Of a stretch of DNA of 64,000 nucleotides, positions 45,977 through 64,000 are shown in pieces. Numbering within the stretch: the stretch's first letter is position 1; each line of letters begins with the position of its first letter. A program made the translations under genes and the position numbers. The stretch lies in contig JAHJUE010000006.1 of assembly GCA_018829205.1 (NCBI GenBank), positions 124,001 to 188,000 on the forward strand, in the 5' to 3' direction. This stretch comes from Bacteroidota bacterium (GTDB lineage: Bacteria > Bacteroidota > Ignavibacteria > Ignavibacteriales > Melioribacteraceae). The notes below the pieces were generated by a model. It was not told the origin of the DNA and made no database searches. It saw only the letters and a list, made by a program, of their open reading frames with translations.

Positions 45977-48900
45977 TTGAAAAAAATTATATCAGTTTTA
46001 TTTCTATTGTTTTTATCAAATCATTTTTTAAACGCGCAAAAAAATATAAATTTCGAAATCCTCGGTATACCCGACGGACTTTCAAATAATACTGTATGGG
46101 ATGTAACCCAGGATAAATACGGGTTTTTATGGATTGCGACCGCCGACGGATTAAACAGATATGACGGCTATAAATTCAAAATCTATAAAAATGATCCGGA
46201 CAACCCCAGTTCACTTCCTAATAACTCACTTAAATCGGTATTGGTCGACTCAAAAGGAACCCTTTGGGTAGGCAGCGACGACGGATTATCAAAATTTGAC
46301 TATAAAACTGAATCGTTTAAAAATTATTTAGTCGACTCATCACTGGCGGCAAATTCAAGAATAAATGTTTTTAATTTGTTTGAAGACTCAAAAAATAATT
46401 TATGGATTAATACTACAAACGGAATTGCTAGGTTAAATAAAGAAAAAGATAAAATAGAAATCTGCAAATTGAATATGAAAGGCAATATCCAAGAATCTGG
46501 TGGATTCTCTGTCTCTACTGTTGAAACTTCTTCCGGTGATATATACAGCAGCACGCCTTCCGGATTTCTGAAATTTAATCAGATCAATAACTATTTTGAA
46601 TTTACTGAAATTACTCCGGAAAAATATCCATCTCTTAAAAACTCAATTATTCTCGAACTTCACGAGGATAAAGCTGGTAGAATTTGGATTGCTTCGCAAA
46701 ATGCATTAATTAATTATGACCCTCAGAATAAAAATATCCGTGAAATAAAGTTACATCAAATAGACGAAACTAAAAGAAATCAGAACGACAATGCTTACTC
46801 GGGTTTGTACGAAGATGAAAACGGGTATTTGTGGATTGGAACAGTTAGTCATGGACTCTACAGACTTAATTTAAAAACAGAAGAAGTTACAAATTATACA
46901 AGATCGGATTTCCCGAACATTTCTACCTTGCCCTCTTTCTTTAAGTTCTATTGCGATAGTTTTAATATCCTTTGGCTATGTACATTTAACAATGGACTTA
47001 TTAAAGCAGATTTTCAAAAAGAACCATTTAAAGTATATAGTAATATTAGTGAAGGCAGCAATAGTCAAATTGACAATTCAATAACTTCAATATATAAAAG
47101 CAATGATGACAATTCAGTATGGCTGGGAACTAGAAGCGGACTAATTAATTTTAAAGGCAGCGACAAGAAAAATATTTACTATACTCACTCCGAACAAAAT
47201 AAAAATTCAATCCCCGGAAATAGAATCTTTAAAATATCTTCAATAGTTGACAATATTATTTGGATTGCTACTAATTCCGGGTTGTCTAAATATAATACTG
47301 TGAAAAACACTTTCGAAAATTATAAATTTTCTACAAATAACTATAATTCGACAACTAATTATAATGTTATTTTTGACATAACTCCTGACGACTACGGCAA
47401 TCTTTGGCTGGCGTCAAATAATGGTTTAATTAAATTTGATCCAAACACAAACAGCCGATTCTACATTCCTGATATAACTTCCCGTACATACAATCCGAAA
47501 CTTTATACTCTTGTTAATACTTTACGTAAAAATGGAAATTCAATTGCCGATATTTTAAATCCCGGCAATTATGCCAACTTAAATAAAGACTTTGCCATAA
47601 ATGAAAATAAAAAAATAATGCTTGTTTCAGTTGGTGAAGGATTATCAAATTTTGGACAGGTTGATTTCGGCTGGCTTGAAACTTCCAGCTCCGATACTAT
47701 TTGGACAGCCTTCGATTATCTGAAATCATTCTATCTCGGAGGCAATACAAAAAATAGAGTTGTTATTAGCTTTGCGGAGCTAAATAAAGGAGATTATACT
47801 TTGAGGTATATATCCGACGACAGTCACTCATACGGGAATTGGAATACTGACGCTCCTGTTGATTCACTTTGGTGGGGAATTCAGGCATTTGAAGTTAGTG
47901 ACTCAATCTACAATTCCTACAAAAGCCTACTGGATGAGAATAATGATTTTCCCTTTATTAATGGCGGTATTGTAAATACTGTCGAATATGACAAATCAGG
48001 TGCAATATGGCTGGGGACTGATGTCGGTTTGAGCAGATACGATATACGGAAAAACAAATTAAGCTCATTGAATGAATTAAATCCCAAAGCAAATTCATTG
48101 AATGGTAAAACAGTAAATAGAATTACAATTGATTCTGACGGTATAGTCTGGATTGCAGCGGAAGCGGGACTTGGAAGATATGATCAGAATAAAAACCAGT
48201 TTAATTTTTTCATTGATAAAGACGGACTGCCGTCAAATTACATCCGTTCTATTGAAGAAGATCTTTTAGGCAATTTATGGCTGAGCTCGGTTAATGGTAT
48301 CACTAAGTATAATAAGGATATTAATAATCCGATCTTTATAAATTATGATATCAAAGACGGACTTCAGGGTTATGTGTTTAACGGTTCCAGTTCTTTTAAA
48401 AGCAAGTCCGGTGAGCTGTTCTTCGGCGGACAAAACGGATTTAATTCTTTCTACCCTGGCAATATCAATAAACAACCTCCTAAAGTTGTAATCTCGGAAC
48501 TCAGAATTGCAAATGAAGTAATGAGTACTTCAAGTGAAAACACCCCCTTGGTAAAAAGTATTTACGATACGGATGCAATTACAATTTCTTACGGGCAAAA
48601 TAACATTTCTTTTGAATTCAACGCCATTCATTTTTCGAGACCGGAGAAGAATCAGTATGCATATAAACTTGAAGGTTTCGGAGATGACAACTGGATATAT
48701 AATAACAGAAGATTTGCGACTTATACAAATCTTGAGCCGGGCGATTATGTATTCAGGGTTAAAGCATCAAACGGCGACGGTATATGGAACGAAGAAGGCC
48801 GTTCAATGAACATTACCGTGCTTCCTCCGTGGTGGAGAACTTATTGGGCATACATCGGCTACTTCTTAGTATTTGCCGGAATTATTTTCGGGATTGATAG

Positions 48901-49735
48901 AATTCAAAGAAGAAGACTTCTGGCAAAGGAACGTTCAGCCAATGCTATTAGAGAAGCCGAACTTAGAGCGGCCGCGGCAGAAGCACAGTCGCGCGCAGTG
49001 CAGGCCGAAAATGACCGTAAGTCCAAAGAACTTGAAGAAGCCAGAGATCTTCAATTATCAATGTTGCCTAAAAATCTACCCGAACTTCCAAATCTTGATA
49101 TCGCTGTATATATGAAAACTGCAACCGAGGTCGGCGGCGATTATTATGATTTTCATATCGCTCTTGACGGAACACTTACAGTAGTTTTAGGCGATGCAAC
49201 CGGACACGGAATGAAAGCCGGAACAATGGTTACTGCCGCGAAGAGTCTGTTCAACAGTTACGCTCCTAATCCTGATATTCTATTTACGTTCAGTGAAATG
49301 ACAAGATGTATTAAACTTATGCATATGCATATGCTATCTATGTGCATGACAATGATAAAACTTAAGGGAAATAAATTATTAATGTCATGCGCGGGTATGC
49401 CACCCATTCTTATTTATAGAAAAGATAATCGTACAATTGAAGAACATGTTATCAAGGGAATGCCGCTTGGCACTTTTAATAATTTCCCTTACCAATTAAA
49501 AGAAACAGAACTTGCATCCGGCGATACAATTATGCTAATGAGCGACGGTTTCCCTGAATTGATGAATAGTGAAAAAGAACTGCTTGGTTATAAAAAAGTG
49601 AGGAATCTTTTTGAAGAAGTTGCACACAAAGAACCGGAAGAAATTATTACATTTTTAAAAGATGAAGGCAGCAGCTGGACAAATAATGGCGAGCCCGATG
49701 ATGATGTCACTTTTGTTATTATAAAAGTTAAGTAA
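45977..49735 (+). CDS. Periplasmic-propeller sensor with SpoIIE-type phosphatase output, paralog 1
   Basis: 1252 residues, TTG start with ggagtgagg before it. Signal peptide 1-20; about two seven-blade propellers of Reg_prop repeats (YGFLWIATADGLNRYDGY-type) to about residue 830; an inserted module at about 520-645 (VSVGEG, FGWLE, KNR, DDSHSYGNWN, WWGIQ); Y_Y_Y domain about 850-945; one membrane helix about 955-977; a coiled coil rich in A/E/R; then a PP2C domain with GGDYYD at about 1053, GDATGHGMKAG, CAGMPP, SDGFPE and DDDVTFVIIK. This is the sensor half of Bacteroidota hybrid two-component proteins joined to an RsbU-like phosphatase. Ligand unknown. Confidence 0.93.
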   Translation: MKKIISVLFLLFLSNHFLNAQKNINFEILGIPDGLSNNTVWDVTQDKYGFLWIATADGLNRYDGYKFKIYKNDPDNPSSLPNNSLKSVLVDSKGTLWVGSDDGLSKFDYKTESFKNYLVDSSLAANSRINVFNLFEDSKNNLWINTTNGIARLNKEKDKIEICKLNMKGNIQESGGFSVSTVETSSGDIYSSTPSGFLKFNQINNYFEFTEITPEKYPSLKNSIILELHEDKAGRIWIASQNALINYDPQNKNIREIKLHQIDETKRNQNDNAYSGLYEDENGYLWIGTVSHGLYRLNLKTEEVTNYTRSDFPNISTLPSFFKFYCDSFNILWLCTFNNGLIKADFQKEPFKVYSNISEGSNSQIDNSITSIYKSNDDNSVWLGTRSGLINFKGSDKKNIYYTHSEQNKNSIPGNRIFKISSIVDNIIWIATNSGLSKYNTVKNTFENYKFSTNNYNSTTNYNVIFDITPDDYGNLWLASNNGLIKFDPNTNSRFYIPDITSRTYNPKLYTLVNTLRKNGNSIADILNPGNYANLNKDFAINENKKIMLVSVGEGLSNFGQVDFGWLETSSSDTIWTAFDYLKSFYLGGNTKNRVVISFAELNKGDYTLRYISDDSHSYGNWNTDAPVDSLWWGIQAFEVSDSIYNSYKSLLDENNDFPFINGGIVNTVEYDKSGAIWLGTDVGLSRYDIRKNKLSSLNELNPKANSLNGKTVNRITIDSDGIVWIAAEAGLGRYDQNKNQFNFFIDKDGLPSNYIRSIEEDLLGNLWLSSVNGITKYNKDINNPIFINYDIKDGLQGYVFNGSSSFKSKSGELFFGGQNGFNSFYPGNINKQPPKVVISELRIANEVMSTSSENTPLVKSIYDTDAITISYGQNNISFEFNAIHFSRPEKNQYAYKLEGFGDDNWIYNNRRFATYTNLEPGDYVFRVKASNGDGIWNEEGRSMNITVLPPWWRTYWAYIGYFLVFAGIIFGIDRIQRRRLLAKERSANAIREAELRAAAAEAQSRAVQAENDRKSKELEEARDLQLSMLPKNLPELPNLDIAVYMKTATEVGGDYYDFHIALDGTLTVVLGDATGHGMKAGTMVTAAKSLFNSYAPNPDILFTFSEMTRCIKLMHMHMLSMCMTMIKLKGNKLLMSCAGMPPILIYRKDNRTIEEHVIKGMPLGTFNNFPYQLKETELASGDTIMLMSDGFPELMNSEKELLGYKKVRNLFEEVAHKEPEEIITFLKDEGSSWTNNGEPDDDVTFVIIKVK

Positions 49736-49771
49736 TAAATCTATTAAAATATTTATTAAGGAAATTTAATA

Positions 49772-52700
49772 ATGAACTTATCCAAGATAAGTGCAATAAT
49801 TTTATGCTCATTTTTTATTGCTGCTAATACAATAAAATCTCAGGATTTTAATCCCGAGCATATATCAATTTCAAACGGATTATCCAATGTTGAGGTCGCC
49901 ACTCTTTTCCAAGATTCATATGGCTTCCTTTGGGTTGGAACTGTTGACGGACTAAATCAATACGACGGATACAAGTTTAAAGTTTTTAAAAACGTTCCCG
50001 GAAATACAGAAAGCTTAATAGACAATGACGTTAGAAAAATAATTGAAGACAAAAACAAAAATTTATGGATTGCCACCGCAGCCGGTGTTTCTATGCTCGA
50101 TAGAAAAACTAATAAATTCAAAAATTATGATTTGGAAAAGTTTTCAAATAACCCGGCAAATCAAACAGCCGGAATTATTATTGACTCAGAAAATAATATA
50201 TGGGTTGAAGCACTGGGCGCCGGATTGTTAAAATTTAATAATACATTAAATTCATTTGAACAGTTTTTCCCCGATTCCCTTCTTCTGGACAAAATTTCAA
50301 GATTAGGAATTATTATTGCGACGGTTGAACATAAGAAGAAATTTTACTTTTCAGGAATTGGTAAAGGTTTTTTTACTTTGGATCTTGTTACAAACAAGCT
50401 TGAAGAATTAAAACTAGGCGACAAAAAAACGTATGATTTTTCAAATGAAAATATCACTAATCTATTTATTGATCAAAAAGAAATTTTATGGATAATAAGC
50501 GAAGATGCGTTTTACAAATATGACATGACAAATAATAATTTTAAAGAAATTAAAAATTACAAAGATGATAGAGTATTTTGGGTTTGGAGATTGAATACTG
50601 GATTTATTCAGGATTTAGAAGGAAATATTTGGATCGGAAAAGATATGCGCGGATTATATAAATTTGACGGCATTTCTGATGATTATTCTCAAATCCCGTT
50701 CGGCACTGAATATGACAACCGTAAAGGTGTCTATACACAAACAATCACTTCTATGATTGTTGATAATTCCGGAATTATCTGGATTGGAACTTTTAATGAC
50801 GGTTTATACAAACATGACCCATCAAAAAAACCTTTTAAACATTTTACGCATGATCCGTCAAACCCCAATAGTATAAGCGGAAATGAAATCTTCGGTCTTG
50901 CCGAATCCAAAAAAAACAAAAACAATATTTACGTGGGCATTAGAGGAGGCGGATTAAATATATTTAATCCGGAAACAGAAACTTTTAAAAATGTTAATAT
51001 CAATTTTAAAGATGACATGTTCGGCGGAAGTGTAAGATCAATTCTGGAATATAAAGATGAGCTTTACTTAGGAACTTGGGGCGACGGACTATTTAAATTA
51101 GATTCAAAAGGAAAATTAACACTTGTTTCAAAATACGATCCTTCAGATTACAACTCTATCTCGGATAATTTAATCAGAGTACTTGCAAAAGACGCCTTTG
51201 GTAAAATCTGGATTGGCGGTAACCAAGGTTTAAATATTTATAATCCTTCAACAAATATTCTTAATCAAATGTATTCAATAGATCAATTTCATTATCCGCA
51301 GGAACTGATTGATTTAATTAGAGAAAAAACAAGTAAGAATGAATCGTTGTGCAGTATATTAAAAGTCCCGTCATCACAAAACCTTAGTAAAAATTTTTCT
51401 ATTGAAAAACCGAGAGAGTTTTTAATTGTTTCGGCCGGAGAAGCTGATGATAGTTCGGCCGCTGATTATGGTTGGCTGGAAGACAGCAACGGGAAAATTA
51501 TCTGGAATTTGTCAGACAAAAAAGAATTTTATCATTTACAAGGGGCCGATAAAAATGTTATTGATATTGATGTGATAAAACTTCTGCCGGGAAAATATAA
51601 ACTTCATTACAAATCAGATGACAGTCATGCATACGGTGATTGGAATGCAAGGGCTCCTATTGACTCTTCATTATGGGGAATTCAAATTTTAAATTTAACC
51701 GATCAGCAGATCACAGTCGCGAAAACCGCTTTGAGTCAAAGCAAATCGCAAGTAAAAATCAGCGGAGAGAATATAAGATCAATACATATTTCTTCTAATA
51801 ATATTGTTTGGATTGGAACAGATCAGGGCGGACTTAACAAATACGATCAAAATTCAAATACAATAAAGTATTACAAATTTGATCCTAAAAATAAAAACTC
51901 CTTAAGTAATAATAATGTTCAATTTATTCATGAAGATAAAAAAGGTATTCTATGGCTTGCTACAAATTACGGACTTAACCGTTTTGATCCTAAAACTGAA
52001 ATTTTTACTGTCTACACTGAAGAAGACGGACTACCTACTAATTATGTAGCTTCAATATTGGAAGATGAAAAAAATAATTTATGGATTGCTACGCGAAACG
52101 GATTATCCCGTTTAAGTTTTGAAGGAAGCAGACCTTTATTTGTAAATTACGACGCAAAAGACGGATTGGGAGGCAGCGATTTTATTGCATTAGTCGCATT
52201 AAAAAGTTCGGCAGGTAAATTTTATTTTGGAGGCGAGCACGGACTTAATGAGTTTGAACCAGGAATAATGAATAGTTCGCCTCCCCGTTCAATTATTACC
52301 GACATAAAAATTTCTAATAGATCAATTTCATATGTTGACGAAGGAAGCTATTTAACAGAATCAATATATGATACAAAAGAAATTATCCTGCCGTTCGATA
52401 AAAACGATCTTTCGTTTGAATTTTCAGCTCTGCATTTCGGACGTGCCGATAAAAACCAGTATGGTCATTTCCTTGAAGGAGATGACGAGAATTGGGTTTA
52501 CGATAACAGAAGATTCACATCATATACAAATTTAAGTCCGGGCGAATACGTATTCCACGCGAAAGGTTCGAACAGCGACGGTGTTTGGGATACCGCAGGT
52601 ACTTCAATAAAAATAATTATTACTCCGCCGTGGTATTTAACAACCTTTGCATACATCGGATATTTTTTAATAGCCGCTGGAGGAATTTACGGCTTTGATA

Positions 52701-53557
52701 GATTCCAAAGGAAAAGATTATTAAGTAAGGAACGGACTGCTAACTCAATCCGAGAAGCCGAACTTCGCGCTCAAGCTGCCGAACTTCAGGCTAAAGCTGC
52801 AGAAGCTCAGAACCGCGCAATACAAATTGAGAATGAACGCAAAACAAAAGAACTTGAAGAAGCCAGAGATCTTCAGCTTTCAATGCTTCCTAAAAATTTG
52901 CCCGCTCTTCCCAATCTTGATATTGCAGTCTATATGAAAACCGCTACTGAAGTCGGCGGTGATTATTATGATTTTAATGTCGGAATAGATGGAACACTTA
53001 CTGTCGTAATTGGAGATGCAACCGGACACGGAATGAAAGCAGGCACAATGGTTACGGCTGCTAAAACTTTATTCAATAGTTATTCTGCAAATCCTGATAT
53101 TGTTTATACTTTTCATGAAATGACTAGATGCATAAAACAGCTTCAAATGCAGTCGGTTTCTATGTGTTTAACTATGCTAAAAATTCAAAGTAATAAATTA
53201 TTTATGTCTTCTGCCGGAATGCCGCCAATGTTTTTATTCAAAAGAGAAAACAGAATAGTTGAAGAACATCTGCTTAAAGGAATGCCCTTGGGAGCTATGA
53301 ATAATTTCCCTTATGAATTAAAAGAAATGGAACTCGCAATAGGTGATACAATTCTTTTAATGAGCGACGGCTTTCCCGAATTAGTAAATGAGAATGATGA
53401 ATTATACGGTTATAAAAGAGTACGTAATAAATTCGAAGAAGTGGCCGAAAAAGAGCCTGAAGAAATTATTTCTTACTTAAAGAATGACGGCTCGATATGG
53501 GTTAATAACAATGATCCTGACGATGATGTTACTTTTGTCGTAATAAAAGTAAAATAA
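49772..53557 (+). CDS. Periplasmic-propeller sensor with SpoIIE-type phosphatase output, paralog 2
   Basis: 1261 residues, same domain order as its neighbours: signal peptide (cleavage after TIKSQ), Reg_prop blades, inserted module at about 524-646 (VSAGEA, YGWLED, DDSHAYGDWN, WGIQ), Y_Y_Y (EFSALHFGRADKNQY ... DGVWDTAG), membrane helix about 956-978, coiled coil and PP2C (GGDYYD about 1060, GDATGHG, SAGMPP, SDGFPE, DDDVTFVVIK). In the inserted module the KNR motif is KNV, unlike paralogs 1, 3 and 4. It starts 36 bases after paralog 1, so the two are likely co-transcribed. The sensor half differs much more from its paralogs than the phosphatase half. Confidence 0.93.
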   Translation: MNLSKISAIILCSFFIAANTIKSQDFNPEHISISNGLSNVEVATLFQDSYGFLWVGTVDGLNQYDGYKFKVFKNVPGNTESLIDNDVRKIIEDKNKNLWIATAAGVSMLDRKTNKFKNYDLEKFSNNPANQTAGIIIDSENNIWVEALGAGLLKFNNTLNSFEQFFPDSLLLDKISRLGIIIATVEHKKKFYFSGIGKGFFTLDLVTNKLEELKLGDKKTYDFSNENITNLFIDQKEILWIISEDAFYKYDMTNNNFKEIKNYKDDRVFWVWRLNTGFIQDLEGNIWIGKDMRGLYKFDGISDDYSQIPFGTEYDNRKGVYTQTITSMIVDNSGIIWIGTFNDGLYKHDPSKKPFKHFTHDPSNPNSISGNEIFGLAESKKNKNNIYVGIRGGGLNIFNPETETFKNVNINFKDDMFGGSVRSILEYKDELYLGTWGDGLFKLDSKGKLTLVSKYDPSDYNSISDNLIRVLAKDAFGKIWIGGNQGLNIYNPSTNILNQMYSIDQFHYPQELIDLIREKTSKNESLCSILKVPSSQNLSKNFSIEKPREFLIVSAGEADDSSAADYGWLEDSNGKIIWNLSDKKEFYHLQGADKNVIDIDVIKLLPGKYKLHYKSDDSHAYGDWNARAPIDSSLWGIQILNLTDQQITVAKTALSQSKSQVKISGENIRSIHISSNNIVWIGTDQGGLNKYDQNSNTIKYYKFDPKNKNSLSNNNVQFIHEDKKGILWLATNYGLNRFDPKTEIFTVYTEEDGLPTNYVASILEDEKNNLWIATRNGLSRLSFEGSRPLFVNYDAKDGLGGSDFIALVALKSSAGKFYFGGEHGLNEFEPGIMNSSPPRSIITDIKISNRSISYVDEGSYLTESIYDTKEIILPFDKNDLSFEFSALHFGRADKNQYGHFLEGDDENWVYDNRRFTSYTNLSPGEYVFHAKGSNSDGVWDTAGTSIKIIITPPWYLTTFAYIGYFLIAAGGIYGFDRFQRKRLLSKERTANSIREAELRAQAAELQAKAAEAQNRAIQIENERKTKELEEARDLQLSMLPKNLPALPNLDIAVYMKTATEVGGDYYDFNVGIDGTLTVVIGDATGHGMKAGTMVTAAKTLFNSYSANPDIVYTFHEMTRCIKQLQMQSVSMCLTMLKIQSNKLFMSSAGMPPMFLFKRENRIVEEHLLKGMPLGAMNNFPYELKEMELAIGDTILLMSDGFPELVNENDELYGYKRVRNKFEEVAEKEPEEIISYLKNDGSIWVNNNDPDDDVTFVVIKVK

Positions 53558-53881
53558 TAAAATAACTTAACGTCAATCCAGAAAATAAATTTAAACCTTA
53601 TAGTAATTATTATTTTTGCTTCTGAGTAATAAGTCATCCGGGAAAATAGTGACTTAATTTTTTATCCAATTACTAGTATTCTAATAAGTAGTTACAATCT
53701 ATCTGCAATTAATAATATAATGATTTAATGATGCTTATATCTTATAAGCATGCACATTTTAAAATTTTATTGCTAATCTAAAATAATTAGGTTGTATATT
53801 AAAAAGATATTGTGTCTAATAATGTGTGTCGCTTTGAAACCCTCAAATGAAAATTTTTATTTTAATAAGCCGGGAATATAA
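53558..53881. other. Intergenic region between paralogs 2 and 3
   Basis: 324 bases without a coding frame. An inverted repeat ATGCTTATA (53731-53739) / TATAAGCAT (53743-53751) with a 3-base loop is followed by AT-rich sequence and may be a weak terminator or regulator site. This long gap suggests paralog 3 has its own promoter. Confidence 0.5.
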
Positions 53882-56800
53882 ATGAATTATTTTGTTCGAA
53901 TTTTAATTCTGCTTTCAATATCTCTAACCTTAATTAATGCACAGCAGAATTATCAATTTAAAAATTTCTCTGAGGCTGAGAAACTTTCGAATACTACAAT
54001 TACCGATTTTTTCCAGGACAGTTACGGGTTTATGTGGATTGCCACAGAAGACGGTTTGAATAGATACGACGGCAAATCAGTCAAAATTTATAAGAATAGA
54101 CAAGGCGATGAAACATCACTCCCCGATAACGCAGTGATGCAGATTGTTGAAGATAAAGATAAAAATTTGTGGGCAGCATGTTATAATGCTGTAGGCAAAC
54201 TTGATAGAAAAACCGACAAATTTAAGAGATACGGATTAGACAATCTGCCGCTTAAAGCTGCTCCGAATTTTTTCAACAGTATGCTTGATTCTGACGGTAA
54301 TGTTTGGTTTTCTTTGAGTGAAGGGGGTGTAATTAAATATGATAAGGAAAAAGATACATTTGTTAATTTCGAACTGAGTAAATTGAATGAAACTACTGTA
54401 TGGGGACAAGTAACAAATATAATCCAATTAAGAAACGGAGTAATATTAGCTGCCGACGCAGGCAGCGGAATTAAATCATTTAATTCTTCTACAAATAAAT
54501 TTGATCCTTATTATTTAAAGCCGGGATACAGCCCAAAAAATGTTCAGAGTTTAAATGAAAGTAGTTCCGGTGATATTTGGTTCAGTGGTCAAAATTTACT
54601 ACTTAAATATTCTCCAATACAATACAGTATTAAACAATATGACCTCGTTGAAAAATCCAAAACAAAAGGCTTATTTAAGTTTTATAACGATATAGTTGAA
54701 GATAACAAAGGTGATTTTTGGATAACTATTTATTCTCACGGAATTTTTCATGTTGATAAACAGTTTGAGAATATCGAACAATATTTTCATGATCCTTCTG
54801 ATCTGCATACCATTCAAGATAACAGATTATCTAATTTTTATATGGATAAGTTTGGAATTTTGTGGATTTCCTATTTGGGTGGAGGTCTGGCTCAAATGGA
54901 TCCAAACGCAAATCCTTTTGATTATTCATCCATTAACTTATCCGGTAGAAACGGAAATCAAACAATAATTAAGGAAATTGCTCCTTTATCTGGAAGTAAT
55001 TCTGAAGTTTTTTTAGCTACTAACACAGACGGAATATTAAAATATAATACAGTTACAAAAGAAACTTCAAAATTAAATCTGATTGACCCAAGTGTTAAAA
55101 TTGATTCAAGTAATTTTATTAATGATTTAGCAGTTGATTTTTCAGGGAATATATGGTTTGCAATTAATAACAGTTCCTTAAAAAGATATGATAATAAAAG
55201 TAAAAAAATAGAAACAATTAAAAGTCCTTATAATAGAATGACGGCTGCTCCTTTTGCAATTCAATCAATAGATATAAGTCCGGATAATAAAATATGGATT
55301 TCATCAAACTGCGGCGTTGATAAATACGATCCGGTTACCGGAAAATTTATTTCAATTCCCAGAATCATGAATAAAAAAATGGATGCGCAGTTAAAAGAAT
55401 CTCTTTCACAAATTAAAAAATCAAGAAAACCAATCAGCTCTATTTTAGAAGTGGGAGAATCAAAAAACCTTAAGGAACCATTTACCGTTAACAAAAAGAC
55501 TAATTTACTTTTAATGTGTATTGGAGAAGGCAGAGCAGTTTCAGGGACTTTTGACCGCGGCGGCATATCAGTAAATGAAGGGAATAAACTATGGGAAATG
55601 ACAGACATTTATGAAACATTTCACGAAGGCGGAGGATTCAAAAACAGAATCGGCTTGAAGGTTTTAAGCATAGATAAAGGAGATTATAATTTATACTATT
55701 CTTCCGATGTGGGACATTCATACGGCGGCTTTAATGTTCTGGCTCCCGATGACTCAACAAGCTGGGGTATTCAAGCTTTTGAATTAAGTGATGATGAGTA
55801 TTCAAATCTAAAAAATCTACTTGAAATAAATCTTGATAATAGTAAATACCTCCCTTTTGAATTTGGCCGAACAATAAAATTCAGCAAAGTAAACTCAAAT
55901 AAAATATGGATAGGTACAAATACAAACAGTTTTTTTCAGTATGATTTGGGTACCGGCGATTACATCCAACATAATTTTGATAAAAATAATATTTCAGACG
56001 CCAGCCATTACATTTATAACTTTTATGAAGATCTTGACGGAATACTATGGGTAGGAACATATGCTAGCTTTTTAAGATTAGATCCTAAAACTAACGAATT
56101 AAAATCATTTACAACATTGGACGGACTTCCGGGAGGAAATATCTATAGTATAACTGAAGATAATTTCGGTGCATTATGGATTTATTCATCAGGAGGATTA
56201 TCAAAATTAAACAAAAATGCGCCAATCGAAAAATATTCATTTATAAATTATGATTCCAAAGATGGATTGGATGGTTTAACAAGTACAACTGCTGTGTGGA
56301 AAAATGAATACGGGAAATTATTCTTTGGAGGCAAAGGGGGTATTATTTCATTTACGCCAGGGAATATTAATACAATAGAGCCTGATGTTGTTATTCATAA
56401 TTTTAGAATTGACGATGTTTCTGTATTTGATGATTCTTCAACTTATTCAATCCCTAACGGAATTTATGATACAAAAGAAATCGAACTTTCATACAATCAA
56501 AATAACATAGCTTTTGAATTTTCATCAATCCATTTCTCCCGCCCAGGTAAAAATAAAACCACTTACCAGCTGGAAGGATTCAGCAGTAAATGGTATGAAT
56601 CAGATAAGAATTTTGCCTCGTTTACCAATCTCGATCCAGGCAGCTATACATTCCGAGTTAAAGGTTCAAACGGAGACGATATTTGGAATGAGAAAGGCCG
56701 TTCAATTTCAATTGTAATTCATCCCCCATGGTGGAAAACTACATTTGCTTATATAGGTTATGCCGTTATTCTGATGGTATCAATTTTTGGATTTGACAGG

Positions 56801-57634
56801 TATCAAAGAAAAAAACTGCTTGGCAAAGCAAGAGAAAAAATGAAAATGCAGGAAGCAATTCATAGAGCAGAAGCGGCTGAACTTCAGGCCCGCGCAGTTC
56901 AAGCAGAAAACGAGAGAAAGACAAAAGAACTTGAAGAAGCAAGAGCACTGCAGCTTTCAATGCTTCCTAAAAATTTGCCCGCACTTCCTCATCTTGACAT
57001 TGCAGTATATATGAAAACCGCTACTGAAGTTGGCGGTGATTATTATGACTTTAATGTAGGGTTAGACGGAACATTGACCGTAGTAATTGGTGACGCAACT
57101 GGACACGGCATGAAAGCCGGAACAATGGTAACAGCAGCAAAAACATTATTCAATAGTTACTCTGCTAATCCCGATATAATTTTTACATTTCATGAAATGA
57201 CAAGATGTATAAAACAACTGCAGATGCAGTCTGTTTCAATGTGCTTAACAATGCTTAAAATTAAGAACAACAACTTAATTCTATCATCAGCCGGAATGCC
57301 CCCCATGTTTTTATTTAAAAGAGAAAATAGAATTGTTGAAGAACATTTATTAAAAGGAATGCCTCTGGGATCGATGAATAATTTTCCCTACGAAATTAGA
57401 GAAATGGAATTAACAAAGGGAGATACAATTCTTCTGATGAGCGACGGCTTCCCGGAACTTTCAAATGACAACAATGAACTTTACGGTTACAAACGAGTAC
57501 GTAATAAATTTGAAGAAGTTGCAGAACAGGAACCTGAAGATATAATTACATACTTAAAAGAAGAAGGTTCAAACTGGGTTAACGACAATGACCCTGATGA
57601 TGATGTTACTTTTGTAGTCTTGAAAGTGAAATAA
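53882..57634 (+). CDS. Periplasmic-propeller sensor with SpoIIE-type phosphatase output, paralog 3
   Basis: 1250 residues. Signal peptide (SLTLINAQQ), propeller blades (YGFMWIATEDGLNRYDGK), inserted module at about 516-641 with the variant DRGG in place of YGWLE but keeping IGEG, KNR, SDVGHSYG and WGIQ. Y_Y_Y about 850-945, membrane helix about 951-972, coiled coil (REKMKMQEAIHRAEAAELQ) and PP2C with GGDYYD at about 1050. Its phosphatase half is closest to paralog 4, with a stretch near 57374-57448 almost identical in DNA to 61316-61390. Followed by a repeat-rich spacer before paralog 4. Confidence 0.93.
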   Translation: MNYFVRILILLSISLTLINAQQNYQFKNFSEAEKLSNTTITDFFQDSYGFMWIATEDGLNRYDGKSVKIYKNRQGDETSLPDNAVMQIVEDKDKNLWAACYNAVGKLDRKTDKFKRYGLDNLPLKAAPNFFNSMLDSDGNVWFSLSEGGVIKYDKEKDTFVNFELSKLNETTVWGQVTNIIQLRNGVILAADAGSGIKSFNSSTNKFDPYYLKPGYSPKNVQSLNESSSGDIWFSGQNLLLKYSPIQYSIKQYDLVEKSKTKGLFKFYNDIVEDNKGDFWITIYSHGIFHVDKQFENIEQYFHDPSDLHTIQDNRLSNFYMDKFGILWISYLGGGLAQMDPNANPFDYSSINLSGRNGNQTIIKEIAPLSGSNSEVFLATNTDGILKYNTVTKETSKLNLIDPSVKIDSSNFINDLAVDFSGNIWFAINNSSLKRYDNKSKKIETIKSPYNRMTAAPFAIQSIDISPDNKIWISSNCGVDKYDPVTGKFISIPRIMNKKMDAQLKESLSQIKKSRKPISSILEVGESKNLKEPFTVNKKTNLLLMCIGEGRAVSGTFDRGGISVNEGNKLWEMTDIYETFHEGGGFKNRIGLKVLSIDKGDYNLYYSSDVGHSYGGFNVLAPDDSTSWGIQAFELSDDEYSNLKNLLEINLDNSKYLPFEFGRTIKFSKVNSNKIWIGTNTNSFFQYDLGTGDYIQHNFDKNNISDASHYIYNFYEDLDGILWVGTYASFLRLDPKTNELKSFTTLDGLPGGNIYSITEDNFGALWIYSSGGLSKLNKNAPIEKYSFINYDSKDGLDGLTSTTAVWKNEYGKLFFGGKGGIISFTPGNINTIEPDVVIHNFRIDDVSVFDDSSTYSIPNGIYDTKEIELSYNQNNIAFEFSSIHFSRPGKNKTTYQLEGFSSKWYESDKNFASFTNLDPGSYTFRVKGSNGDDIWNEKGRSISIVIHPPWWKTTFAYIGYAVILMVSIFGFDRYQRKKLLGKAREKMKMQEAIHRAEAAELQARAVQAENERKTKELEEARALQLSMLPKNLPALPHLDIAVYMKTATEVGGDYYDFNVGLDGTLTVVIGDATGHGMKAGTMVTAAKTLFNSYSANPDIIFTFHEMTRCIKQLQMQSVSMCLTMLKIKNNNLILSSAGMPPMFLFKRENRIVEEHLLKGMPLGSMNNFPYEIREMELTKGDTILLMSDGFPELSNDNNELYGYKRVRNKFEEVAEQEPEDIITYLKEEGSNWVNDNDPDDDVTFVVLKVK

Positions 57635-57641
57635 ATTATAG

Positions 57642-57750
57642 CCTCCTTCCAAAGCTCGTTTTGTGAGAAAAATGGCCTGTCCTTCGTAGCTCGTTTTGTG
57701 AGAAAAAGGGCATGTCCTCCGTAGCTCGTTTTTTGAGCGAAGGAGGGATG
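57642..57750 (+). repeat. Three imperfect 35-base tandem repeats ending in a hairpin
   Basis: Units begin at about 57645, 57680 and 57715, each containing agctcgttttgtgagaaaaa-like sequence and ending g(g)catg/ggcctg. The last unit differs (ttttttgagcgaaggaggg) and folds back on its own start: cctccgtagctc against gagcgaaggagg. It lies between paralogs 3 and 4 and is more GC-rich than the surrounding DNA. It may terminate or attenuate transcription of paralog 3, or be a dispersed repeat. Confidence 0.75.
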
Positions 57751-57802
57751 TAACGATTGTTGTAATAAAAATAAAACTTTATCCATATGGACAAACTATT
57801 TT

Positions 57803-60800
57803 ATGAAAAATAAATTATTGTCAATCACTATTGTTTTAATTGCGCAATACCTTGCTTTTAATTCTCCAATTTATGCACAGGAAAATTTTGTGTTCGAAAA
57901 CTTCTCAATCCCTCAAGGACTTTCAAACCCGAATATAAATTGCATTTACGAAGACAAGTTCGGTTTTCTATGGCTTGGCACTAATGACGGATTAAACAGG
58001 TACGACGGCTACGAATTTAAAGTTTATAAAAATAATCCTTCGGATAGTACCAGTTTGCCGGGAAATACCATCACAGCAATAAATGAAGATAAAAACGGGA
58101 ATCTCTGGATTGGTGGATTTAATGTAATGGTTAAGTATATAAGAGAAAAAGATAATTTCGAAAAAGTAAATTTTAACAAAGGCAATAATTTAAACCTGCC
58201 TAATATTGATAATTTATTTATAGATAGTAAAAATAGAATTTGGCTTGGTACCGACTCTTTCGGATTGCACTTATTAAATTCTGAGAAAATGAGTACACGT
58301 AAAATTGAATTTATGGTAAATAACGAGAAAATTTTTAACGGCGATATTTTTTCCATTAATGAAACCAATAATCATGAAATACTGGCGTTGGATTACGGTT
58401 TGGGAATTTTTTATTACAATGAAGAAAAAGATGTGTTTCTTCAATATAAAAATCTTGGAACAGATATTTTGGGATCCGGTATGTTTGTTATTCATGAAGA
58501 TGAATTTAACAGAATTTGGATTGGAGGAGAAAATGCTTTACTGATATATAATAAAAACACAAGTAACGTGGAAAGTGTTCCTATGTTTTCTCACGCTGGC
58601 AAATTCGGATTTTTTACCAGAGGCGTATATAAAATTTTAAAAGATAAAACCGGTTTTTTATGGATCGCTACTCTTGATGACGGTTTATTCAGATATAATC
58701 CTGTTGATAATAACTTTTTCCGTTTCTCATATACAGCTGATTCTAAAAACAATATTAAGTCAACCGGCATACTCTCATTATATCAAGACAGTTTCGGCAA
58801 CATCTGGATTGGAACTATGCTTGACGGTTTATATAAAGTTGATCCAAATAAACAGCCTATGAATGTTATAAGGATTCCGGAAAACTTAAAAACAAACTCC
58901 CCAAAAGATAAAATAACAGCGGTCGCGAAAACAGAAAATGATAATAATTTAATTTTTGGTACCGCGGGTATCGGTTTAATTATTCAAAACCCTCAAACAA
59001 AAGCATTATTAAATTATAAATCTGGAACTTCCGCTTCAAGTTTATCGAGCAACAATATATCATCTCTAACAGTTGATGAAAACAATAATATTTGGATTGG
59101 CAGCGATAAGGGTCTAGACTATTTGAATAGAAAATCAGGCACAATCACAAGCTATTTTAAAGATGCTATAAATAAATATGTAAGATTCAGTATCAGAGAT
59201 CTAAAAATTGATTATGCAGGCAGATTGTTTGTGGCCTCTTCACAGGGAGTGGATATATTTTATCCAAAGCAAGACTTCTTAAAAAAAATTCCTTCATTAA
59301 TTAACCGCGAACTTAGCCCGGAGTTAAAATCAGACCTGATTAGAATTGCCGATACCTCGAAACCTTTAGCCGCCATATTGAAAGTTGGTGAGCAAAAATT
59401 ATTAAATACTAAATTCGAAATTAAAGACAGTACAAAGGTTTTAATTTTAGGAGTGGGAGAAGGACAGCCGAATTTGGAAACCATGTTTGATTACGGATGG
59501 CTGGAAGATGAGGCAGGCAATTTAGTATGGGGAATGCAGAAATTTGTTAATTCATTCCATTTTGACGGCGGAATGAAAAATAGAATCATTGCTCAAACTC
59601 TTTCTCTTAAAAAAGGAATTTATAATCTTAAGTTTCAATCCGATGTTGGTCATTCATACGGTAATTTCAACGTTGAGTCACCGAAAGATTCCGCGCTTTG
59701 GGGAATTCAAGTATTAAAAATTAATGATGAACAAGAAAAGGATTTTTCAGAAAGAATAAATTCAGAGATTAAAAACAGTAGTAAAATGCTGATGGAAAAT
59801 GCAACTTCTATTTATATAAGTAAATTTTATGAAGATATTTTATGGATCGGGACAATCAGTCAAGGATTAATAAAATACAACTTGGGCAACGGTAAGTTTA
59901 CGCAGTATAATAAAAACATAAAAGTCGTTAAAGAAATTGTAACTAATAATGATGTATATAATGTATTGGAAGATAGCAAAGGTATCGTTTGGTTCTCATC
60001 TCCAATCGGATTGGGGAAATTAAATCCTAAAACTGAAAAAATAATTTTCTATACTGAAAAAGACGGTCTGCCTACAAATCTGGTACTGGCAATACAAGAA
60101 GATAATTACGGAAACCTTTGGATTAGCAGCGCCGCAGGCTTAACCACGTTAGTAAGAAGTGAGGAGGGTGAAAAAGAATCGTTTATAAACATTGACATAA
60201 AAGACGGGCTTCAGGGTTATTCATATTCAACTGCTACATGGAAAACAGATATCGGCGAATTATTTTTCGGCGGTGATAACGGGATTAATTATTTTGTGCC
60301 TGGAAGAACGAATCAAACCAAGCCTAAAATTGTTATTACGGATTTAAGAATTTCCGACGTATCAGTTTTTAACAATAACTCGACTTCCCCTTTGTCCAAA
60401 GACTTAAACGAAACCGAAGAATTAACATTGTCGTATTCGCAGAACGATATTGCTTTTCAGTTCGCCCCTATTCACTATTCAAGACCGGAAAGAAATCTTA
60501 TCGCATACAAACTTGATGGCTTTAACGCGGATTGGGTTTACAGTAAACTAAAATTTGCAACATTTACAAATCTTGACCCCGGTGAATATACCCTAAAATT
60601 AAAAGCGGCTAACGGTGATGGAATATGGAGCGATGAAGAAAGAACTATCCGTATTGTAATTCTGCCTCCTTATTGGAGAACTACATTAGCATATATTTCC
60701 TACGGAATAATTTTCTTCGGAATAATATTCGGGATTGATCGTATTCAACGAAGACGTATTTTAACAAAAGAGAGAAATGTTGCGGCAATTAAAGAAGCCG

Positions 60801-61576
60801 AACTACGCGCAATGGCAGCTGAAGCTCAATCAAGAGTTATGCAGGCGGAGAATGAAAGAAAATCCAAAGAGCTTGAAGAAGCCCGCGAACTGCAGCTTTC
60901 TATGCTTCCTAAAAATCTGCCTTCTCTTCCCCATCTTGATATTGCCGTTTATATGAAAACAGCTACTGAAGTAGGCGGTGATTATTATGACTTTAATGTA
61001 GGTTTAGACGGAACATTAACCGTTGTTATCGGCGACGCTACAGGACATGGCATGAAAGCAGGCACAATGGTCACTGCCGCCAAAACACTATTTAACAGCT
61101 ATTCGGCCAACCCCAATATTCTTTTTACTTTTCATGAAATGACAAGATGTATTAAACAGCTTCAGATGCAGTCAGTTTCTATGTGTTTAACAATGCTTAA
61201 AATTAGGAACAACAACTTAATTATATCATCAGCCGGAATGCCTCCAATGTTTTTATTTAAAAGAGAAAGCAGAATTGTAGAGGAACATTTACTTAAAGGC
61301 ATGCCGCTCGGCACCATGAATAATTTTCCCTACGAAATTAGAGAAATGGAATTAGCAAAGGGAGATACAATACTTCTGATGAGCGACGGTTTTCCCGAAT
61401 TAACAAATGAAGACAATGAATTATACGGTTACAAAAGAGTGAGAAATAAATTTGAAGAAACTGCTGATAAAGAACCTGAAGAAATAATAACATGCTTAAA
61501 AGATGAAGGATCAAGATGGGTTAAAGATAATGACCCTGATGATGATGTTACGTTTGTTGTAATTAAAATAAAATAG
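57803..61576 (+). CDS. Periplasmic-propeller sensor with SpoIIE-type phosphatase output, paralog 4
   Basis: 1257 residues. Signal peptide to about residue 28 (FNSPIYAQE), Reg_prop blades, inserted module at about 522-647 (LGVGEG, DYGWLED, KNR, SDVGHSYGNFN, WGIQ), Y_Y_Y about 860-950, membrane helix about 957-980, coiled coil and PP2C (GGDYYD about 1057, GDATGHGMKAG, SAGMPP, SDGFPE, DDDVTFVVIK). All metal-binding aspartates are present, so the phosphatase should be active. The response-regulator gene starts 36 bases after its stop and is probably in the same transcript. Confidence 0.93.
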   Translation: MKNKLLSITIVLIAQYLAFNSPIYAQENFVFENFSIPQGLSNPNINCIYEDKFGFLWLGTNDGLNRYDGYEFKVYKNNPSDSTSLPGNTITAINEDKNGNLWIGGFNVMVKYIREKDNFEKVNFNKGNNLNLPNIDNLFIDSKNRIWLGTDSFGLHLLNSEKMSTRKIEFMVNNEKIFNGDIFSINETNNHEILALDYGLGIFYYNEEKDVFLQYKNLGTDILGSGMFVIHEDEFNRIWIGGENALLIYNKNTSNVESVPMFSHAGKFGFFTRGVYKILKDKTGFLWIATLDDGLFRYNPVDNNFFRFSYTADSKNNIKSTGILSLYQDSFGNIWIGTMLDGLYKVDPNKQPMNVIRIPENLKTNSPKDKITAVAKTENDNNLIFGTAGIGLIIQNPQTKALLNYKSGTSASSLSSNNISSLTVDENNNIWIGSDKGLDYLNRKSGTITSYFKDAINKYVRFSIRDLKIDYAGRLFVASSQGVDIFYPKQDFLKKIPSLINRELSPELKSDLIRIADTSKPLAAILKVGEQKLLNTKFEIKDSTKVLILGVGEGQPNLETMFDYGWLEDEAGNLVWGMQKFVNSFHFDGGMKNRIIAQTLSLKKGIYNLKFQSDVGHSYGNFNVESPKDSALWGIQVLKINDEQEKDFSERINSEIKNSSKMLMENATSIYISKFYEDILWIGTISQGLIKYNLGNGKFTQYNKNIKVVKEIVTNNDVYNVLEDSKGIVWFSSPIGLGKLNPKTEKIIFYTEKDGLPTNLVLAIQEDNYGNLWISSAAGLTTLVRSEEGEKESFINIDIKDGLQGYSYSTATWKTDIGELFFGGDNGINYFVPGRTNQTKPKIVITDLRISDVSVFNNNSTSPLSKDLNETEELTLSYSQNDIAFQFAPIHYSRPERNLIAYKLDGFNADWVYSKLKFATFTNLDPGEYTLKLKAANGDGIWSDEERTIRIVILPPYWRTTLAYISYGIIFFGIIFGIDRIQRRRILTKERNVAAIKEAELRAMAAEAQSRVMQAENERKSKELEEARELQLSMLPKNLPSLPHLDIAVYMKTATEVGGDYYDFNVGLDGTLTVVIGDATGHGMKAGTMVTAAKTLFNSYSANPNILFTFHEMTRCIKQLQMQSVSMCLTMLKIRNNNLIISSAGMPPMFLFKRESRIVEEHLLKGMPLGTMNNFPYEIREMELAKGDTILLMSDGFPELTNEDNELYGYKRVRNKFEETADKEPEEIITCLKDEGSRWVKDNDPDDDVTFVVIKIK

Positions 61577-62016: not shown

Positions 62017-64000
62017 ATGAAGAATAAATCTGTTATGAATAATGAGTTGATAGAAGACAATTTATCAATCGAAGAGAAATTAATTCAGAGAGAAGCTGAA
62101 CTGGCAATTATAAGCAGTGTTAGTGAAGCAATTTCAAAAAGACTTGATGCAAAAACCATTACCCGCATAATCGGTGACAAAGTAAAAGAAATATTTAATT
62201 CAGAAGTGACTGAAATCCTTTTGCTCAATGAAACAACTAATATGATAGATATTCCTTATTCATACTACAGGGGATATCAAACTGCCGATTCTTTTCAGCT
62301 CGGAGAAGGTTTGACTTCAAAAGTAATAAAATCCGCTAAGCCTCTTGTAATAGGGACTTTTGAAGAAAGCTTAAAAAATGGGGTGATTGTACAATCCGAC
62401 GAAGAAAAAACGGAAACCTATATTGGCGTCCCAATTATTTCACATGAAAAAGTTTTAGGCGTTGTAAGTATTCAAAGCTATAAAAAGAATGACTACAACG
62501 ATGAAAAAGTGCGTTTGCTTTCTATACTTTCATCAAACATGGGTGTTGCGCTTGAAAACGCTAGACTATTTGAAGAAACAAATATTTTATTAAATGAAAC
62601 AAAACAAAGAAATGCCGAATTGGGAGTTATAAACAGCGTGCAGGAAGGTTTAGCAAAAGAGCTTGATATAAACGGCATTTATGAACTTGTTGGTGAAAAG
62701 ATAAGAGAAATTTTTAATGCACAAGTTATAGACATTGTCTCATATGATAAAAATACAAACATGATCCGTGATAGTTATTCTTATGAAAAGGGTGACCGGA
62801 CATTAATTGGACCGAGACCGCTTACGGGATTTAGAAAACACATAGTTAAATCATTAAAGCCGTTGGTTATCAATAAAGACAATGAAAAAGAATCAATTAA
62901 GTACGGCAACAAGGTAGTATTTGGTGAAATGCCGAAATCATTACTATTTGTTCCTATGATAACCGGCGGAGAAGTTTCATGTATAATCAGTCTGCAGAAT
63001 CTTGATATAGAAAATGCTTTCAGTGAATCTGATGTACGGCTATTAACTACTCTTGCTAACAGTATGAGTGTAGCCCTTGAAAATGCTAGGTTATTTGATG
63101 AAACCAACCGATTATTAAAAGAAACGGAACAGCGTTCGGCTGAACTTACCGTTATTAATAGTGTGCAGGAAGGATTGGTAAAGCAGGTAGAACTTAATGC
63201 TATTTTTGAACTGGTGGGTGAAAAGATAAGGGAAATTTTTGATGCTCAGGTGGTGTCAATAGGAGTCTATGATTATGAGAATGAATTATGCCAGTTTAAA
63301 TACGATATAGAAAAAGGCGAAAGATTTTTTGACGAACCAAGAAAATTCATTTCAATTGATAAACATCTTATAAACTTTAAAAAAATTCTACTGGTAAACA
63401 GTAATATAGTTGATGAGTTAGTGAAAATTGGTGAAAAAAAACCAAAAGCTGCAGAAGGAACAGAAATGCCCAAATCCGCAATTTGGGTACCTATGATTGT
63501 TGATAATAACGTAAAAGGATATGTAAGCTTACAGAATATAGATCGTGAAAATGCATTCAGCGATTCGGATGTTAGACTTTTAACAACGCTTACAAACTCA
63601 ATGAGTGTCGCTCTTGAAAACGCCAGACTCTTTGATGAAACAAACAAATTATTAGAGGAAACCAAACAGCAGGCTATCGAATTAAAAATTATCAACAGTG
63701 TAGGCGAAGGTTTGGCAAAGCAGCTTGACTTTCAATCTATTATAGATTTGGTAGGTGAAAAAATTCGGGAAGTATTCAGCGCACAGGTAGTAAGTATTTC
63801 AACATATGAAAAAGAAACTGAACAAATACATCATAGGTACGCAGTTGAATTAGACAAACGTTTTTACTTCGATAAACCGCAGGCAATTGACAACGACAGA
63901 AAAGAAATTATTGAATCCAAACAGCCTTTGATTTTCGGAACTGCCAAAGAAGCTATTGAACATAGCGGCGAAGAAGTTGTAGCCGGCGAAATGCCGGAAT
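62017..64000 (+). CDS. Multi-GAF-domain signalling protein, 3' end cut by window edge
   Basis: At least 661 residues, ATG 62017, open to the window end. Four tandem GAF domains of about 180 residues, each introduced by a coiled linker of the form ETK(Q)-R-x-A-E-L-x-x-I-N-S-V-x-E-G-L, and each of the first three ending in MGVALENARLFEE or MSVALENARLFDE. The fourth is incomplete. The units are similar enough to indicate recent internal duplication. No output domain is reached; a kinase, cyclase or phosphatase would be expected further on. It follows the receiver gene by 32 bases, suggesting joint function. Confidence 0.85.
   Translation, partial: MKNKSVMNNELIEDNLSIEEKLIQREAELAIISSVSEAISKRLDAKTITRIIGDKVKEIFNSEVTEILLLNETTNMIDIPYSYYRGYQTADSFQLGEGLTSKVIKSAKPLVIGTFEESLKNGVIVQSDEEKTETYIGVPIISHEKVLGVVSIQSYKKNDYNDEKVRLLSILSSNMGVALENARLFEETNILLNETKQRNAELGVINSVQEGLAKELDINGIYELVGEKIREIFNAQVIDIVSYDKNTNMIRDSYSYEKGDRTLIGPRPLTGFRKHIVKSLKPLVINKDNEKESIKYGNKVVFGEMPKSLLFVPMITGGEVSCIISLQNLDIENAFSESDVRLLTTLANSMSVALENARLFDETNRLLKETEQRSAELTVINSVQEGLVKQVELNAIFELVGEKIREIFDAQVVSIGVYDYENELCQFKYDIEKGERFFDEPRKFISIDKHLINFKKILLVNSNIVDELVKIGEKKPKAAEGTEMPKSAIWVPMIVDNNVKGYVSLQNIDRENAFSDSDVRLLTTLTNSMSVALENARLFDETNKLLEETKQQAIELKIINSVGEGLAKQLDFQSIIDLVGEKIREVFSAQVVSISTYEKETEQIHHRYAVELDKRFYFDKPQAIDNDRKEIIESKQPLIFGTAKEAIEHSGEEVVAGEMPE

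Follow-up and report, generated by a model that had tools for sequence, protein, structure and literature searches.

Architecture of four neighbouring sensors

What is the block of about 125 residues that interrupts the propeller region of four adjacent sensor genes, and what does it contribute to them? In the window (the whole stretch of 64,000 nucleotides analysed here), positions 45977-61576 are filled by four consecutive forward-strand open reading frames of 1250-1261 residues each, S1 to S4. S1 consists of a signal peptide, two seven-bladed Reg_prop propellers (the insert lies in propeller 2), a Y_Y_Y domain, a transmembrane (TM) helix and a SpoIIE/PP2C phosphatase. Pfam detects 4-9 Reg_prop stretches, one Y_Y_Y and one SpoIIE domain per sensor in all four. 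With two seven-bladed propellers, Y_Y_Y and TM helix, S1-S4 are propeller sensors of the BT4663 type. A hybrid two-component system (HisKA, HATPase, receiver, AraC-type output) was discarded for S1-S4 because their C-terminal output is SpoIIE/PP2C. The features are the following:

45977..49735, forward strand: sensor S1, 1252 residues (open reading frame list, Pfam, AlphaFold2 periplasmic model)
47474..47539, forward strand: N-terminal flanking helix of the S1 insert, residues 500-521, with Y-x-P-x-L (AlphaFold2 models)
47540..47902, forward strand: S1 insert domain, residues 522-642 (alignment, AlphaFold2)
47903..47956, forward strand: C-terminal flanking helix of the S1 insert, residues 643-660 (AlphaFold2 models)
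49772..53557, forward strand: sensor S2, 1261 residues, architecture as S1 (open reading frame list, Pfam)
51344..51703, forward strand: S2 insert domain (four-way alignment)
53882..57634, forward strand: sensor S3, 1250 residues, architecture as S1 (open reading frame list, Pfam)
55430..55792, forward strand: S3 insert domain (four-way alignment)
57803..61576, forward strand: sensor S4, 1257 residues, architecture as S1 (open reading frame list, Pfam)
59363..59728, forward strand: S4 insert domain (four-way alignment)

The conserved block reported in the preliminary description aligns unambiguously in all four sensors, with bounds close to those claimed there: it is a non-propeller module of about 120 residues with a short helix on each side. 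The landmarks listed at the time (GEG, D-x-GW, W, KNR, SD-x-SHSYG-x-WN, P-x-DS and WGIQ) can be seen in the alignment, with a few exceptions: GW reads GG in paralog 3, and in paralog 2 GEG reads GEA and KNR reads KNV. A profile of the insert retrieves all four paralogs with E-values of about 1e-47 to 1e-50. The genome encodes 13 Y_Y_Y proteins, and a profile search finds the insert in four of these, the window paralogs only.

Some further observations concern the surroundings. The SpoIIE domains (49067-49735, 52889-53557, 56966-57634 and 60908-61576) share 71-91% identity among S1-S4, against about 18-43% for the propeller parts, a contrast that suggests gene conversion or a strong constraint on the common output. 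A 1340-residue cytoplasmic protein (window 62017-63999 and L143:518-4540) reads as tandem GAF-like repeats with a histidine kinase last, and a receiver-SpoIIE protein lies 3' of it (L143:4561-5703). About 3.4 kb past the window end the same cluster holds a further Y_Y_Y-SpoIIE sensor (L143:5882-9574, 1230 residues), in which the insert profile finds no match.

Occurrence outside the sensors

As had been proposed as a check, we looked for the block in other secreted proteins, and it was found in proteins with tandem copies, both in this genome of 4.59 Mb and in dozens of further genomes. The protein of this genome (G000 C26:8766-10550) is secreted and 594 residues long; the insert profile finds three strong copies and one weak, degenerate first copy. 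Given these copies and the E-values of the profile itself, chance is excluded as an origin of the conserved block. Elsewhere the tandem form has four copies in a secreted protein of about 570-750 residues. From GTDB contigs, one scan recovered 212 relatives that could be confirmed; 80 were retained, nearly all of them tandem proteins. The genomes, mostly metagenome-assembled, belong by their record titles to Bacteroidota, Ignavibacteriota, Rhodothermota, Calditrichota, KSB1, Zixiibacteriota, Latescibacterota, Gemmatimonadota, Acidobacteriota and others. The window's own genome is assigned to Melioribacteraceae, since proteins from genomes of its family agree in match coordinates and scores with named loci of Melioribacteraceae. 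Sampling showed the domain in 19 of 58 relatives, in 50 of 296 genomes at phylum level and in 78 of 341 at class level. A secreted protein with four copies in tandem seems to be where the domain mainly resides.

Gene neighbours of the tandem proteins are not conserved across phyla, and none points to a substrate; the largest neighbour cluster consisted of reverse-frame open reading frames and was dismissed as an artefact. One copy of the domain reads from its sequence as the C-terminus of a serine-beta-lactamase-like protein (L100:966-2600).

Fold and search for a known family

AlphaFold2 applied to the alignment of 80 sequences predicts a beta-sandwich with flanking helices (pLDDT 92.1, pTM 0.86). 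An ordinary blade, which had been named as the outcome that would speak against a separate module, was not obtained. The Reg_prop blade (PF07494; four-stranded and W-shaped, D-x-x-G-x-hW-h-G-T) was rejected on three grounds: the predicted sandwich, the absence of a Pfam match for the insert alone, and a BT3049 propeller that lacks the insert. For the latter (3v9f) the alignment covers profile positions 276-500 and then 650-953 while the BT3049 chain itself is continuous. Since the alignment halts at 500 and restarts at 650 on an unbroken chain, it is exactly the insert that is missing. We take the insert to be an independent extracellular domain with a beta-sandwich fold and no name of its own, not a propeller blade.

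The preliminary description could not put a name to the module, and indeed no named family was found in Pfam, NCBIfam or the PDB sequences: the insert block alone and its 80 relatives gave nothing above noise in Pfam or NCBIfam, and the PDB sequences contain no match to the insert. Likewise, a literature search found nothing on the module, nor on propeller-SpoIIE sensors with an insert. After re-alignment, the insert scores best by fold against PPC/collagen-binding domains (Z 6.8) and against the CUB, GOLD and subtilase C-terminal sandwiches in the PDB. These matches (Z at most 6.8) are modest, within the range expected of a common arrangement, and they mix binding domains of very different functions. 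Influenza haemagglutinin heads, which occupied the top Foldseek rows, were put down to chance (TM about 0.3, rmsd 7-12 Å).

The PPC/bacterial collagen-binding sandwich (PF04151; 1nqj, 5sv5) resembles the insert most, in size, in the sandwich itself and in the best VIA Z of 6.8 (2.7-3.3 Å over 88-90 residues). Both families also occur as tandem copies in secreted proteins and have a short L-x-x-G-x-Y turn in common. Nonetheless, the conserved residues differ and membership of PF04151 was rejected, as none of the 80 members matches the Pfam model at E 0.1. Profile-profile comparison lends no support either: hhalign compared the insert with four PPC repeats encoded in this genome and gave a probability of 0.2% over 10 columns, with a PPC profile of four sequences only. 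A secreted protein of 646 residues (L138; G000 C15:239203-240504) contains four PPC domains in tandem and, as we read it, a type IX-like C-terminal sorting tail; it mirrors the protein in which the new domain is repeated four times. CUB and GOLD are similar at fold level (Z 5.8-6.6) but have no sequence relation to the insert and are known mainly from eukaryotes. The residue pattern of the insert may resemble that of calcium-binding CUB domains, whose calcium ligands are E, D and D/N in end loops. CBM35-like and other carbohydrate-binding modules are also small beta-sandwiches on extracellular proteins, with weak fold matches (2wz8, 8xmz, 7zvo), but here again there is no sequence match, and no Pfam CBM scores above cut-off.

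Position in the propeller and conserved residues

The insert had been placed near the junction of the two presumed propellers. This does not hold in the periplasmic model, where the end of propeller 1 is at about residue 355. The insert comes after blade 10 and before blade 11, which are the third and fourth blades of propeller 2. The order in this model (AlphaFold2 from the four paralog sequences only, pLDDT 75.7; blades counted from the strand list) is blades 1-7, blades 8-10, helix, sandwich, helix, blades 11-14, Y_Y_Y and TM helix. According to the PorZ paper, the first strand of each blade begins on the entry side (PMC5121618). A blade has four up-and-down strands, the first starting and the fourth ending on that side, and so the linker from blade to blade also lies there. 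In BT4663, disaccharides are bound at the entry surfaces of both propellers (PMC5121618). By analogy with this published geometry, the insert loop would emerge on the entry, ligand-facing side of propeller 2.

Among the 80 diverse copies, E53, N92, D113, H116 and N122 (model numbering) are invariant (80/80), and D62 and K91 are kept in 79/80. Their equivalents in S1 are E554, N593, D614, H617, N623, D563 and K592, respectively, and all seven are kept in S1-S4. Each is either inside or directly bordering one of loops 2-3, 4-5 and 6-7, which share one end in an antiparallel sandwich; consequently all seven lie at the same end. From the predicted strand order, they probably meet in one pocket. 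Identity among S1-S4 is 40% for the insert, against 23-39% for the propeller segments and 80% for SpoIIE. Because the seven residues are unchanged and the insert is more alike than the propellers, we read this as an insert that recognizes one ligand common to S1-S4, with different ligands for the propellers.

The insert in other sensors

Propeller sensors with the insert show it at three different propeller positions and with four output types (PP2C, HisKA, HisKA_3 and hybrid two-component), outputs and blade numbers of these relatives being read from sequence. The insert follows about blade 10 in sensors with SpoIIE output as well as in sensors with HisKA output (L127, L128). It follows blade 4 in L108 and L113, both with HisKA_3 output, and similarly in L114, whose sequence ends before the kinase. 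In L099, which reads as a full hybrid two-component output, it follows blade 3. In a tree, all inserts together with L100 and L134 form one clade (97/98) that adjoins the fourth tandem repeat (86/94), though with few columns and an unsure fine order. This fits a single capture of a copy related to repeat 4, which may then have moved between sensors.

The propeller-SpoIIE sensor at L107:566-4315 has an insert without the SDxSHSY motif and the conserved His; apparently the fold was kept and the site lost. The conserved site is also lost in the degenerate first repeat of the G000 C26:8766-10550 protein.

Possible function and alternatives

Of the functions proposed beforehand, ligand binding is the one we favour, in view of the seven invariant or nearly invariant end-loop residues and the probable attachment to the entry face; nothing specific speaks for oligomerisation, the other function proposed there. 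Most likely the insert is an accessory domain that binds a ligand (a glycan, a metal or a surface polymer). The complete explanation, in which we place a little more belief than doubt, is that of a captured sandwich domain on the entry face of propeller 2 that signals from an end-loop ligand pocket to the phosphatase. The domain interrupts the loop that leads from the final strand of one blade to the opening strand of the following blade, mid-propeller 2, and would stand on the entry face. Its conserved end loops would form a pocket for a ligand common to the four sensors (sugar, surface polymer or metal-bridged group), adjoining the propeller shaft, which would read the paralog-specific ligand. 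On binding, the propellers and the Y_Y_Y stalk would shift; a single TM helix would relay the signal to the SpoIIE-type phosphatase in the cytoplasm, which would presumably act on an anti-sigma regulator. Sequence, predicted fold, position, distribution, conserved residues and domain order are what the analysis shows; binding itself, the nature of the ligand and the direction of the signal are proposed here as suppositions, and the steps beyond the membrane, including the phosphatase target, are suggested by likeness to SpoIIE-type PP2C phosphatases.

The conserved end loops could instead be structural. We consider it rather unlikely, though deserving of serious attention, that the insert serves structure or dimerisation, steadying propeller 2 or bridging two sensors, with loops that hold its own fold (for example through a structural calcium site). 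Some CUB and PPC-like sandwiches bind structural calcium, and such sandwiches scored near the top in the fold comparison; in addition, the invariant Gly, Trp, Tyr and Pro look structural, and the tandem protein requires four copies. However, homologous sensors of the same genome do without the insert (present in only 4 of the 13 Y_Y_Y proteins), and the different blades that it follows do not suggest one fixed interface. Moreover, dimerisation of BT4663 has been assigned to the Y_Y_Y domain (PMC5121618).

Binding of a partner protein rather than a small ligand, such as the secreted tandem-repeat protein or whatever that protein coats, seems improbable to us. One genome does have the family both in a secreted protein and in sensors, and the insert copies cluster with repeat 4, but the sensor and tandem-protein genes are not co-localised and several genomes have insert sensors with the tandem protein undetected, or vice versa. 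We give very little credence to an enzyme or to covalent cross-linking, such as a Lys-Asn bond within the molecule: although the polar residues K91, N92, E53, D113 and H116 vary little or not at all, Pfam and NCBIfam gave no match to an enzyme family, and the module has its K and N side by side, unlike known isopeptide domains.

Returning to the favoured ligand-binding domain, a broader and more tentative idea, on which our doubts outweigh our belief, is that of a portable extracellular recognition domain of FCB bacteria. It would have one fixed ligand site and serve in the widely conserved secreted protein with four repeats; captured once by propeller sensors, it would there provide a second reading of ligands and would have been moved among positions in sensors with four outputs. 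The sensors would then be two-input devices. As the domain occurs in many phyla, has no Pfam or NCBIfam entry and carries seven polar residues that hardly vary, one structure or binding screen could annotate many proteins.

Comparison with known systems

The periplasmic sensors of Bacteroides HTCS are the best match of S1-S4, both by sequence (E 2e-126) and by fold. BT4663 (4a2l/4a2m) and BT3049 (3v9f) likewise have two seven-bladed Reg_prop propellers, Y_Y_Y and one TM helix. Differences are found at two points. BT3049 shows a clean gap at the insert, and neither the BT4663 nor the BT3049 structure has a match to the insert region. Furthermore, the output of Bacteroides HTCS is a histidine kinase with a DNA-binding domain, whereas the window sensors end in a SpoIIE/PP2C phosphatase. 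BT4663-type sensors can thus gain an extra domain, probably on the ligand-facing side, and so broaden what they sense in a manner unseen in the solved Bacteroides structures.
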